A stretch of DNA of 17,641 nucleotides from Prevotella sp. CAG:1320 (GTDB lineage: Bacteria; Bacteroidota; Bacteroidia; Bacteroidales; Bacteroidaceae), in the NCBI GenBank assembly GCA_000435635.1, contig FR882149.1:132420-150060 (forward strand), read 5' to 3'. This document shows positions 14,618 to 17,596 of the stretch, one piece after another. The notes below the pieces were generated by a model. That model had not been told where the DNA came from, searched no databases, and saw only the letters and a program-made list of their open reading frames with translations. Every line of letters starts with the position of its first letter. Positions within the stretch are counted from its first letter, which is position 1. The translations under genes and the position numbers were made by a program.

Positions 14618-14625
14618 TACTTTTG
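14618..14625 (+). promoter_or_regulatory. -7 promoter box for the CGGC-copA unit
   Basis: TACTTTTG exactly matches TAnnTTTG, 48 bp upstream of the CGGC start codon. A TTG is present but only 14 bp upstream (inside the dyad), too near for the usual 19-20 bp spacing, which suggests a weak or activator-dependent promoter. Confidence 0.6.
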
Positions 14626-14673
14626 CCCATACAAAACATAAACGAGAACCTCAACTTCAACCCACATAAGAAC

Positions 14674-15057
14674 ATGAAACTAGGAATCATCAGATGCCAA
14701 CAGACAGAGGACTACTGCCCGGGAAGCGGTTGCTTCAAGGCCGTGAGAAACCGGAAAGGCGCGTTCGCCGAGGCGAACGAGGACATCGAAATCATCGGCT
14801 TTGCCAACTGCGGCGGCTGCCCGGGCAAGAAGGCCGTGCTGCGAGCCAAGCTGCTCGTGGAGCGAGGAGCTGACACCATCGCCTTCGCCTCATGCATACA
14901 GAAAGGCACACCCATAGGCTATCCCTGTCCATTCCACGCCAGGATGAAGAAACTGCTACAGACATGGCTCCCGGAGAACATCCGCTTGCTGGACTATACG
15001 CACGACGCGCCAGGGGAAAAGACTTCCACGGACAACAAACAGCAGGAAAGGGACTAG
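14674..15057 (+). CDS. CGGC-domain cysteine-rich protein
   Basis: A 127-aa cytoplasmic protein of the CGGC family (predicted metal- or redox-active, function not established). The family blocks are all present: R-C-Q-Q-T-E-D-Y-C-P-G-S-G-C-F (7-21), F-A-N-C-G-G-C-P-G-K-K (43-53) and A-S-C-I-Q-K-G-T-P-I-G-Y-P-C-P-F-H (72-88). Seven cysteines (8, 15, 20, 46, 49, 74, 85) and His88 are candidate ligands. I chose the ATG at 14674 because it begins the conserved block and lies 48 bp from the -7 box; longer in-frame starts run back through the promoter and repeats. The last 15 residues are hydrophilic and outside the domain. The stop is one base before the GTG of copA, so the two are cotranscribed and probably coupled. 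A role in copper or other metal handling is inferred from that neighbour. Confidence 0.85.
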   Translation: MKLGIIRCQQTEDYCPGSGCFKAVRNRKGAFAEANEDIEIIGFANCGGCPGKKAVLRAKLLVERGADTIAFASCIQKGTPIGYPCPFHARMKKLLQTWLPENIRLLDYTHDAPGEKTSTDNKQQERD

Positions 15058-15058
15058 C

Positions 15059-17596
15059 GTGGACAAAGAGACCAAGAGAAAGGAGACATTTCCCGTCATG
15101 GGGATGAGTTGCGCCTCGTGCGCCGCGCGGGTCAGCAAGACCCTGAACGGCCAGCACGGCGTATACGAGGCCAACGTCAGTTACGCGGCGGCGACGGCGC
15201 AAGTGGTCTACAACCCAGAAGAATGCTCGGCCGCGGACTTGCGCTTGGCCGTGCGGGAGGCGGGCTATGACCTGCTGACCGATGACGGAGCGGACGAGAA
15301 AACCGTGGAGTCTGAGCACGAAAAGGAATACCGCCTACTGAGACGGCAAACCATCGCCGCCATCGCGCTGGCCGTGCCCATCCTAGTGATGAGCGTGTTT
15401 TTCATGGACGCGGACTTCACGAAATACGCCACGTGGCTCTTGTCCACGGTGGTCGTGTTTGGCTTTGGCAGGCGGTTTTACGTCAACACGTGGCGGCAGC
15501 TGAAGCACCGCTCGGCCAACATGGACACGCTGGTGGCCACCAGCACGGGCATCGCCTACCTGTTCAGCGTGTTTAACTTGTTTTTCCCAGACTTCTGGCT
15601 GTCGAGGGGCATAGAGCCTCACGTCTACTTTGAGTCCGCCAGTGTCATCATCGCCTTCATCCTCCTGGGCAGGCTGTTGGAGGCGCGGGCGAAACAAAAG
15701 ACCTCCACCGCCATCAAGAAACTGATGGGACTGCCACCCACCTCCACCGCCATCAAGAAGCTGATGGGACTGCAACCCAAGACCGTCACCATCCTGACCG
15801 ACAAGGGGGAAATGAGCATCCCGATAGAGCAAGCGCGGGCGGGAGACACCATTATCGTGAAGCCGGGAGAGCGCATCGCCGTGGACGGGATTGTCGTCAG
15901 CGGAGAATCCTACGTGGACGAAAGCACGCTCACGGGCGAGCCCATCCCCGCGCGCAAGAAGAAAGGGGAGGCCGTGTTCGCCGGTTCCATCAACCAAAAA
16001 GGCTCTTTCCGTTTCAAGGCGTACAAGACCGGGCAAGACACGATGCTGGCCCAGATCATCCGCATGGTGCAAGAGGCGCAAGGCAGCAAAGTGCCCGTCC
16101 AGCAGATGGTGGACAAAGTGGCCGCCGTATTTGTGCCGACCATCATGACGCTCTCCGTTCTTTCGTTCCTCCTGTGGTGGATTTTCGCCCCCTCCATGGG
16201 CTTTGTCCACGGCATATTGGCCATGGTCACCGTGCTTATCATCGCCTGTCCCTGCGCTTTGGGGCTGGCCACGCCTACGGCCTTGATTGTCGGCATCGGC
16301 AAGGGAGCGGAAAACGGCATCTTGATAAAAGACGCCACGAGCCTGGAAGTAGCCCGAAAGATAGACGCCATCATCCTGGACAAGACAGGAACCATCACGG
16401 AAGGACACCCCGCCGTGACCGACGCGTATTGGCGTGAAGGTACTACCGGGAAACGGGACATACTCTACAGCCTGGAGCGGCTATCCGAGCATCCGCTGGC
16501 GGAAGCCCTAACCACCGCGCTGAAAGACGGGAAGGCCTTGCCGATAGACCATTTTGAAAACATTCCGGGCCAGGGCGTGAAGGGCGTGGCGGAAGGCATG
16601 ACCTATTACGCGGGCAGCCTGGAATTGCTCAACGCCAACCACATACAGGCGGATGACCACATGAGGGAAAAAGCCGAGAATTGGCAAAAAGAAGCAAAAA
16701 CCGTCATTTGGTTCGCCGATTCCAAGCAAGCCATCGCCGTTATCGCCATCACGGACAAGATAAAGAAGACCTCCACAGAAGCCATAAAAACCCTGCGCAA
16801 GATAGGCGTAGAGGTCTATATGTTGACCGGCGACAACGAAGCGGCGGCGAAATCCATAGCCGAAAAGACGGGCATAGAACATTACCAGGCAAAAGCACTG
16901 CCGCAAGACAAGGCCAGGTTTATCATGCGCATGCAAGCCGAAGGACATAAAGTGGCCATGGTGGGCGATGGCATCAACGACAGCGCGGCCTTGGCGCAGG
17001 CGGACCTGAGCATAGCCATGGGCAAAGGCAGCGACATAGCGATGGACACGGCCATGGTCACCATCCTCTCCTCAGACCTCACGAAAGTGGGCGAGGCCAT
17101 TCGCCTGTCGCAACTCACCATAAGGACTATCCACCAAAACCTCTTCTGGGCGTTCATCTACAACGTCATCGCCATCCCCATAGCGGCGGGAGCGTTGTAC
17201 CCCGTCAATGGTTTCCTGCTCAATCCCATGATAGGCGGGGCGGCCATGGCGTTCAGCAGCGTGAGCGTAGTGACCAACAGCCTGCGGCTGAAACGCAAAA
17301 AGCTCTCCAGGGAGGACGCTTCCCGTCCATGCCCCGACAGCACTTGCACGACAAACAATCACACAAACCCCATAAACGAGAAACCCATGAAGTATGAATT
17401 CAAGATTGAAGGCATGATGTGCGGCCACTGCCGCGCCCATGTGGAGAAAGCCCTCAACACCATCGAGGGCGTGAAAGCCACCGTAACACTGGAGCCGCCC
17501 GTGGCCAGCATAGAGTCTGACCACGAGCTGAGACTGGAAGACCTGCAGCAAACCATCACGGAAGAAGCGGGCGACTACAAGATTCTCAACATCTAG
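15059..17596 (+). CDS. copA: Cu(I)-type P1B ATPase with N- and C-terminal heavy-metal domains
   Basis: An 845-aa copper-exporting ATPase. An N-terminal HMA domain (G-M-S-C-A-S-C, Cys18/Cys21) is followed by eight membrane segments. The actuator T-G-E is at 292-294, the C-P-C metal site at 397-399, the phosphorylation motif D-K-T-G-T at 441-445, S-E-H-P-L at 476-480 and the hinge G-D-G-I-N-D at 636-641. Y-N (701-702) in segment 7 and M-x-x-S-S (730-734) in segment 8 are the Cu(I)-selective residues of the P1B-1 group. A second HMA (G-M-M-C-G-H-C, Cys788/Cys791) sits at the C-terminus. The start is GTG, one base after the CGGC stop and preceded by a clear AGGAAAGG Shine-Dalgarno; the first ATG (15098) would cut into the HMA. 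Oddities are a 13-residue tandem duplication at 215-240 and a linker at about 750-776 that resembles a gene leader. Confidence 0.93.
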   Translation: MDKETKRKETFPVMGMSCASCAARVSKTLNGQHGVYEANVSYAAATAQVVYNPEECSAADLRLAVREAGYDLLTDDGADEKTVESEHEKEYRLLRRQTIAAIALAVPILVMSVFFMDADFTKYATWLLSTVVVFGFGRRFYVNTWRQLKHRSANMDTLVATSTGIAYLFSVFNLFFPDFWLSRGIEPHVYFESASVIIAFILLGRLLEARAKQKTSTAIKKLMGLPPTSTAIKKLMGLQPKTVTILTDKGEMSIPIEQARAGDTIIVKPGERIAVDGIVVSGESYVDESTLTGEPIPARKKKGEAVFAGSINQKGSFRFKAYKTGQDTMLAQIIRMVQEAQGSKVPVQQMVDKVAAVFVPTIMTLSVLSFLLWWIFAPSMGFVHGILAMVTVLIIACPCALGLATPTALIVGIGKGAENGILIKDATSLEVARKIDAIILDKTGTITEGHPAVTDAYWREGTTGKRDILYSLERLSEHPLAEALTTALKDGKALPIDHFENIPGQGVKGVAEGMTYYAGSLELLNANHIQADDHMREKAENWQKEAKTVIWFADSKQAIAVIAITDKIKKTSTEAIKTLRKIGVEVYMLTGDNEAAAKSIAEKTGIEHYQAKALPQDKARFIMRMQAEGHKVAMVGDGINDSAALAQADLSIAMGKGSDIAMDTAMVTILSSDLTKVGEAIRLSQLTIRTIHQNLFWAFIYNVIAIPIAAGALYPVNGFLLNPMIGGAAMAFSSVSVVTNSLRLKRKKLSREDASRPCPDSTCTTNNHTNPINEKPMKYEFKIEGMMCGHCRAHVEKALNTIEGVKATVTLEPPVASIESDHELRLEDLQQTITEEAGDYKILNI
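15701..15778 (+). repeat. 39-bp in-frame tandem duplication inside copA
   Basis: Positions 15701-15739 and 15740-15778 are 39-bp copies differing at two bases (AAA/AAG and CCA/CAA). They encode TSTAIKKLMGLPP and TSTAIKKLMGLQP, residues 215-240. Related CopA proteins have this segment once, between membrane segment 4 and the actuator domain. Confidence 0.95.
17368..17389 (+). promoter_or_regulatory. Possible internal translation start for a free CopZ-like HMA domain
   Basis: The in-frame ATG at 17387 (Met777) begins a complete HMA domain of 69 residues (M-K-Y-E-F-K-I-E-G-M-M-C). The bases before it contain CATAAACGAGAA (17371-17382), identical to 14637-14648 in the leader of the CGGC gene. 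Initiation here would release a copper-chaperone-sized protein. This is a hypothesis from sequence only. Confidence 0.35.

Follow-up and report, generated by a model that had tools for sequence, protein, structure and literature searches.

A CopZ-like domain at the C-terminus of Bacteroidales CopA as a candidate nested gene for a copper chaperone

Introduction

Copper chaperones of the CopZ/Atx1 type are usually encoded by separate genes. In Escherichia coli, a chaperone made by frameshifting comes from the N-terminal HMA domain of copA. Studies by Meydan and by Drees, both from 2017, are said to have described this copA frameshift chaperone, and, judging from its title, the latter reportedly attributed the copA-derived product partly to differential transcript formation. 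According to the available part of PMC9548414, the single E. coli gene supplies both the pump and a copper chaperone by ribosomal frameshifting. Small products nested in frame within a larger protein are known in the form of RpnS in Rpn proteins (PMC10327210) and of Cas11b (PMC11899642), as far as the available text of these two sources describes them. A metal-binding domain at the C-terminus of CopA is, in turn, reported for Archaeoglobus fulgidus in the accessible portion of PMC7558416.

Here we describe a copA gene in which a second HMA domain follows the pump in the same reading frame. The gene lies in the window, by which we mean the whole 17 641-nucleotide stretch of DNA that was analysed. 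The proposed arrangement resembles that of E. coli copA in that a pump and a copper chaperone would be obtained from one gene. It differs in the route, which in E. coli is a frameshift at the N-terminal HMA and in Bacteroidales would be an internal in-frame start at the C-terminal HMA. As with RpnS and Cas11b, part of a larger protein would also be translated alone; going by the text available for them, however, these are defence proteins, whereas here the pair would consist of a metal pump and the chaperone belonging to it, and the phylum is one without Shine–Dalgarno sequences. The C-terminal place of the metal-binding domain is shared with CopA of A. fulgidus, for which the available part of PMC7558416 makes no mention of an internal start. 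That one copA gene can give rise to two proteins is already known; what would be new, on the best-supported reading, is a route other than the E. coli frameshift as described in the accessible text of PMC9548414. Among the top-ranked titles and opening lines of abstracts in a literature search that covered subscription journals thinly, none described internal initiation in a Bacteroidetes copA.

Results and discussion

Domain architecture of CopA

The last gene of the window, copA (15059–17596, plus strand), starts with GTG and encodes 845 residues in a single open frame; the nearest named relatives of the gene belong to Bacteroidales. Pfam and NCBI profiles together with an AlphaFold model identify the product as a P1B-type Cu+ ATPase. 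The P1B-1 assignment is based on TIGR01511 (581.7 bits, cut-off 397) and on the presence of PF00122 and PF00702, and the DKTGT, CPC and GDGxND motifs are seen in the translation. An N-terminal HMA (residues 10–71) is followed by the ATPase core and the C-terminal HMA. The earlier note had described this second HMA as joined to the end of CopA in the same open frame by a hydrophilic, Asn/Thr-rich linker of about 30 residues, and both points were confirmed. Residues 777–845 alone score 43.6 bits with PF00403 (cut-off 24.8), which places them among HMA domains, and their CxxC metal site reads GMMCGHC. The Asn/Thr-rich linker (17291–17386, plus strand) starts after the last membrane helix and, counted on the sequence, comprises 32 residues (745–776); it is hypervariable in relatives and predicted to be disordered.

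Of the AlphaFold model, which was built from 33 sequences and has a mean pLDDT of 70, only the C-terminal domain and the linker were used. Residues 738–774 have a pLDDT below 50, i.e. they are modelled as disordered, and the first strand of the C-terminal HMA begins at residue 777. From there on the beta-alpha-beta-beta-alpha-beta fold is complete, with pLDDT values of 84–91 for the ten-residue blocks after the first. Met777 (codon at 17387–17389, plus strand) is the first residue of this domain. In sequence, the C-terminal HMA matches solved CopZ, Atox1 and CopA domains in the PDB. It resembles the CopZ/Atx1-type chaperones of PDB entries 1k0v, 2qif and 1cpz, which we take to be from Bacillus subtilis and Enterococcus, in size, in the GMxCxxC motif and in sequence, but differs from them in being fused and in falling short of the NCBI CopZ cut-offs (NF047957, 47 of 85 bits; NF033794, 45.2 of 95; NF033795, 41.7 of 91), and is therefore called CopZ-like. 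Based on the profiles, the PDB matches and the model, the proposed internal gene (17387–17596, plus strand) would encode a CopZ-like HMA protein of 69 residues starting with MKYEF.

Distribution of the fusion

A search with the domain region found 584 proteins, the best 120 of which were listed. When 298 genomes of the family were searched, 59 gave a match at E < 1e-14, in every case within an open frame of at least 818 residues, and none of these 59 contained a second match at E 1e-6. The fetched loci yielded 140 distinct copA-like ORFs, reduced from 156 by counting those with the same last 150 residues once. The C-terminal HMA is fused in 93 of them, 32 have no HMA behind, and five are followed closely by an HMA-like ORF, each a weak match of 13–17 bits; the rest run off the sequence (7) or leave too little room behind (3). 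Fused genes identical over the 80 residues around the HMA motif likewise entered the count once, and the 93 include a 15-member close clade. As an open frame was the criterion for fusion, in-frame stops are missing from this set by definition. None of the 140 distinct ORFs is an unfused copA followed by a closely related copZ. By these sequence comparisons, the C-terminal HMA fusion occurs widely among the sampled Bacteroidales and is not a local event.

A sample of the phylum, limited to the best-matching loci from the 101 genomes that gave a match, gave a different picture. In 27 of its 28 new loci the domain is found close to the N-terminus of a long ORF, which was assigned to CopA on the basis of its length; these 27 ORFs contain 30 hits of the related domain, and the remaining locus has short ORFs. 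For a sample selected in this way, the C-terminal place of the HMA may be typical of Bacteroidales. Among loci L234–L261, the domain most like the C-terminal HMA occurs twice in L243, L246 and L258; in the first two of these loci a Met precedes the second of the two copies. Standalone copZ-like genes away from copA are found in L046, L055 and L056, in neighbourhoods that look similar by eye, and genomes G003 and G013 encode a CopA without the C-terminal HMA. The weak HMA-like ORFs that lie ca. 33–277 bases behind copA in L028 (4352–4564, 71 residues), L032, L213 and L223 are possibly a model of an unfused ancestor.

Conservation of the internal methionine

A Met 7–11 residues before the HMA motif (scored at positions −11 to −7 relative to the motif) is present in 118 of the best 120 of the 584 proteins and in 66 of the 93 distinct fused copA genes. 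Parabacteroides sp. An277 (L044), Bacteroides sp. ET71 (L041) and Muribaculum sp. An289 (L025) are among the isolates with the Met, and Phocaeicola intestinalis Sa1CVN1 (L031) is among those without it. As a background, 1302 linker windows of five residues lying further upstream were scored, and 75 of them contain a Met. Among the 27 Met-less genes, L017 (Met at −13, with A-rich surroundings) and L092 (Met at −6) just miss the scored range. The linker itself is hypervariable: over 105 rows, each of the columns −24 to −9 takes 50–74 parsimony steps, and its length up to the HMA motif varies between 24 and 59 residues in the Met rows. The Met column takes 24 steps compared with 11–29 for the first residues of the domain (−7 to −1), and the Met consequently behaves like a first domain residue, without being better conserved. 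Together with the boundary in the model, the above counts identify a putative start codon conserved at the domain boundary and kept beside a hypervariable linker.

The 27 Met-less genes retain the C-terminal domain and its CxxC motif, and their linkers are mostly rich in Pro, Ala and Ser. Compensation of the lost Met by a separate chaperone was considered as a general rule and rejected, as it applies to one case only: G001, where the Met is lost from the fused CopA, has a separate 73-residue frame (L067). The remaining 26 Met-less fused copAs come from genomes in which no separate HMA protein was found at thresholds of E 0.01 and 1e-6, indicating that a free chaperone is not indispensable.

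Initiation-type context in the family

Bacteroidetes are a phylum naturally without Shine–Dalgarno sequences (PMC6847099). For Flavobacterium johnsoniae, the available part of the same source reports adenines at −3, −6, −12 and −13 as positive determinants of initiation; it also names low structure and, again, the missing Shine–Dalgarno sequences. Over the 21 bases that precede the ATG, the 66 Met genes contain 54% A and 29% GC, compared with 24% A and 56% GC in the genes themselves. An A excess over the gene body is found in all 66, albeit a small one in L079 and L164. In the Met-less genes upstream A amounts to 29%, five of the 27 being A-rich upstream. Adenine occupies positions −3, −6, −12 and −13 in 41, 55, 37 and 53 of the 66 Met genes, respectively, versus 11, 4, 7 and 5 of the 27 Met-less ones. 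The mean fold energy between −30 and +20 is −1.2 in Met genes and −9.0 in Met-less genes; it reaches −12.5 at other copA Met codons (150 of 730 sampled) and −4.3 at 30 true copA starts, which were chosen by rule as the last Met before the N-terminal HMA. Compared with the other in-frame Met codons tested in its own gene, the HMA Met lies in the weakest structure in 61 of 66 genes and has the most upstream A in 49.

The bias extends to synonymous sites. In the 66 Met genes, 354 codons ending in A or T were counted over the seven codons before the Met where 187.8 are expected from the codon usage of each gene, and 216 over the five codons after it (158.8 expected); further into the domain the numbers are 1127 and 1079.3. 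The Met-less genes show 100 versus 73.5 expected before the nominal site, no excess just after it (51 versus 54.5), and 536 versus 463.5 for the domain as a whole. For codons +1 to +5, the excess corresponds to a z-score of 6.95 with Met and −0.67 without, values that are too large and overstate independence because the rows are related. In independent pairs, Met and A-richness agree 4:0 and 3:0, which is not significant (p 0.125 and 0.25). With Met-less genes and Met codons in the gene body as controls, the synonymous and folding tests thus reveal, at family level, a signal of the initiation-region type that exceeds the requirements of the protein. As judged from sequence, the context of the internal Met fits the published Bacteroidetes determinants, as far as the available part of PMC6847099 sets them out.

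The earlier note would have counted it against an internal start if all close relatives carried the domain behind unrelated linkers. The linkers do differ, yet the Met and its A-rich context persist in most relatives, which argues for internal initiation rather than against it. A stop codon is present in each of the two other frames in 54 and 55 of the 66 Met-type linkers. As no split copA–copZ was found, this may reflect selection for both products; the result is supporting and not decisive, since fusion was scored by open frame.

The proposed initiation region in the window

The proposed internal translation initiation region of the window (−21 to +15; 17366–17401, plus strand) was assessed by base composition and folding and compared with the determinants in the available part of PMC6847099. 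Adenine is found at −6, −12 and −13 before Met777, the base at −3 is C, and no Shine–Dalgarno-like motif was seen in the region. The A content upstream is 48% versus 26% in the window's copA, and the fold energy over −30 to +20 is −0.9 kcal/mol. Among the 26 in-frame Met codons of this gene that were tested, Met777 has the highest upstream A (0.48, next 0.38) and the least structure (next −5.1 kcal/mol), and both values lie within the span covered by ten further starts predicted in the window. A synonymous excess of A/T-ending codons is absent from this copy, with 2 versus 2.5 expected before Met777 and 2 versus 2.6 after it. The Met, the A-richness and the low structure therefore argue weakly to moderately for an internal start in the window's own copy, set against the C at −3 and the lack of synonymous bias. 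The site would be a plausible example, albeit a weaker one than in most relatives. The internal start suggested in the earlier note is thus supported by comparison for the family, on Met, A-richness, folding and synonymous sites, and less so for the copy in which it was proposed.

Internal initiation and its alternatives

We attribute these observations, with fair though not full confidence, to internal in-frame initiation, by which the C-terminal HMA would be a nested gene yielding a free 69-residue CopZ-like chaperone beside the fused pump. Most ribosomes on copA would produce the full pump with its tethered C-terminal copper-binding domain. Some would enter anew at the A-rich, unstructured stretch of the linker and start at Met777, and the resulting free protein, if stable, could supply the pump with Cu(I). 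Two demands would then fall on the DNA of the linker, which would have to keep the frame open for the fusion and also act as an initiation region of the Bacteroidetes type. The nested gene appears best supported for the family and weaker for the window's copy alone. If true, the supply of pump and chaperone from one copA evolved more than once and by different routes, and Bacteroidetes initiation sites can be read inside coding sequence without Shine–Dalgarno pairing. Other fused domains that follow a conserved Met and A-rich codons may likewise be hidden genes of Bacteroidetes missed by annotation.

It is unlikely, though in keeping with several observations, that the start is a relic, i.e. 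that a separate copZ behind copA was fused through the loss of a stop codon, perhaps several times, and that its start and A-rich leader were left without function. On quick trees with no inferred root, the Met label requires 13 changes (CopA core, 116 rows), at least six of them forced by well-supported branches, and 15 changes under a mixture model (115 rows), the Met rows being spread over the core tree. These changes, the existence of Met-less lineages, the missing synonymous bias in the window and the distant small HMA-like ORFs behind copA in L028, L032, L213 and L223 would all suit a relic. So would clade C1, in which ACA precedes the ATG in 15 of 15 genes: the codons of shared residues agree to a high degree farther upstream and across the CxxC motif as well, and the codon test within the clade is weak because shared descent raises identity outside the start region too. 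A functionless leader is, however, difficult to reconcile with leader-type bases that persist despite linker turnover, or with upstream A that does not depend on gene GC in Met genes (rho −0.15), even if upstream GC does (rho 0.36). Moreover, a related copZ stands behind none of the 140 copA-like ORFs, and all 59 family genomes with a match carry the long open frame. The same comparison bears on the former copZ postulated in the earlier note, for which the CopZ-like domain opening with a start-like Met speaks, while the best profile score (47 of 85 bits) and the lack of a closely related unfused counterpart among the 140 ORFs speak against it.

Still less probable is a purely tethered domain that acts only within the pump, the Met being structural and Lys/Asn/Thr-rich linkers being favoured. 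The 27 of 93 fused copAs that keep domain and CxxC without a Met agree with such a role, and so does a Met column about as conserved as the first residues of the domain. Amino-acid preference nonetheless leaves the synonymous excess and its reach into codons +1 to +5 unexplained, the Met is shifted by 1–2 residues from its usual place in eight rows checked, and the Met-less linkers are mostly of the Pro/Ala/Ser type. A short transcript from an internal promoter at the 3′ end of copA, for which the differential transcripts reportedly named in the title of the 2017 Drees study offer a precedent, is very improbable, as the Bacteroidetes −7 element TAnnTTTG, found within −60 to −10 at 26 of 30 copA starts, occurs there at 0 of 53 internal sites and is absent from positions 15056–17400 of the window (plus strand), an argument that applies to promoters of the TAnnTTTG type.

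A second transporter family

Internal initiation may extend beyond CopA. Among the fetched loci (L144, L160, L141, L143 and others), 30 distinct fusions of an HMA to SO_0444 family Cu/Zn efflux transporters were found, all 30 above the family cut-off of NF033936. These resemble copA in carrying a C-terminal HMA and in comprising a Met subset with an A-rich, unstructured context, but belong to an unrelated transporter family. An HMA Met is present in 13 of the 30, with 49% A upstream and a fold energy of −2.1 for the group. The other 17 are Met-less, many with His/Cys-rich linkers, and show 24% A and −10.3. The Met group has a lower mean GC content (45% versus 51%), and its upstream synonymous excess is modest (64 versus 49.5); one of its members, L152, lacks the A-rich context. 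Whether Bacteroidales metal exporters in general carry a nested chaperone gene with a linker dual-coded as open linker and as A-rich initiation site, so that one message yields the chaperone in fused and free form, a device which arose at least twice (CopA and SO_0444) as an alternative to the E. coli frameshift, we regard as evenly balanced.

The upstream gene and the 12-base match

A CGGC-domain gene (14674–15057) precedes copA, with one base between it and the copA start codon. Its leader contains the 12-base sequence CATAAACGAGAA (14637–14648, plus strand), of which a second exact copy lies in the linker just before Met777 (17371–17382, plus strand). In the earlier note the match was taken as a sign that the linker had once been a gene leader. 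The identity at both places is real, but it does not carry that argument: the window holds 39 exact same-strand 12-mer pairs (overlapping ones counted), and CATAAACGAGAA recurs in 1 of 233 other fetched loci (L210; some loci overlap) and is therefore not conserved by relatives. The match was rejected as a sign of descent and is judged coincidental. Both places are A-rich, initiation-type sequence, which would make a chance match likelier.

Further upstream, TACTTTTG (14618–14625, plus strand) precedes both the CGGC gene and copA and is presumably a promoter element of the Bacteroidetes −7 type, whose consensus we take it to match. The CGGC-domain protein gave no tblastn match (E 1e-5) in the 233 other fetched loci, many of which have short flanks, and the CGGC–copA neighbourhood may be private to the window. 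Within copA, a near-tandem duplication of 39 bases (15701–15778), the copies of which agree at 37 of 39 positions, lengthens the protein by 13 residues. The duplicated pattern occurs in none of the best 120 of the 584 proteins; it may be a variant of the strain or may have arisen in assembly.
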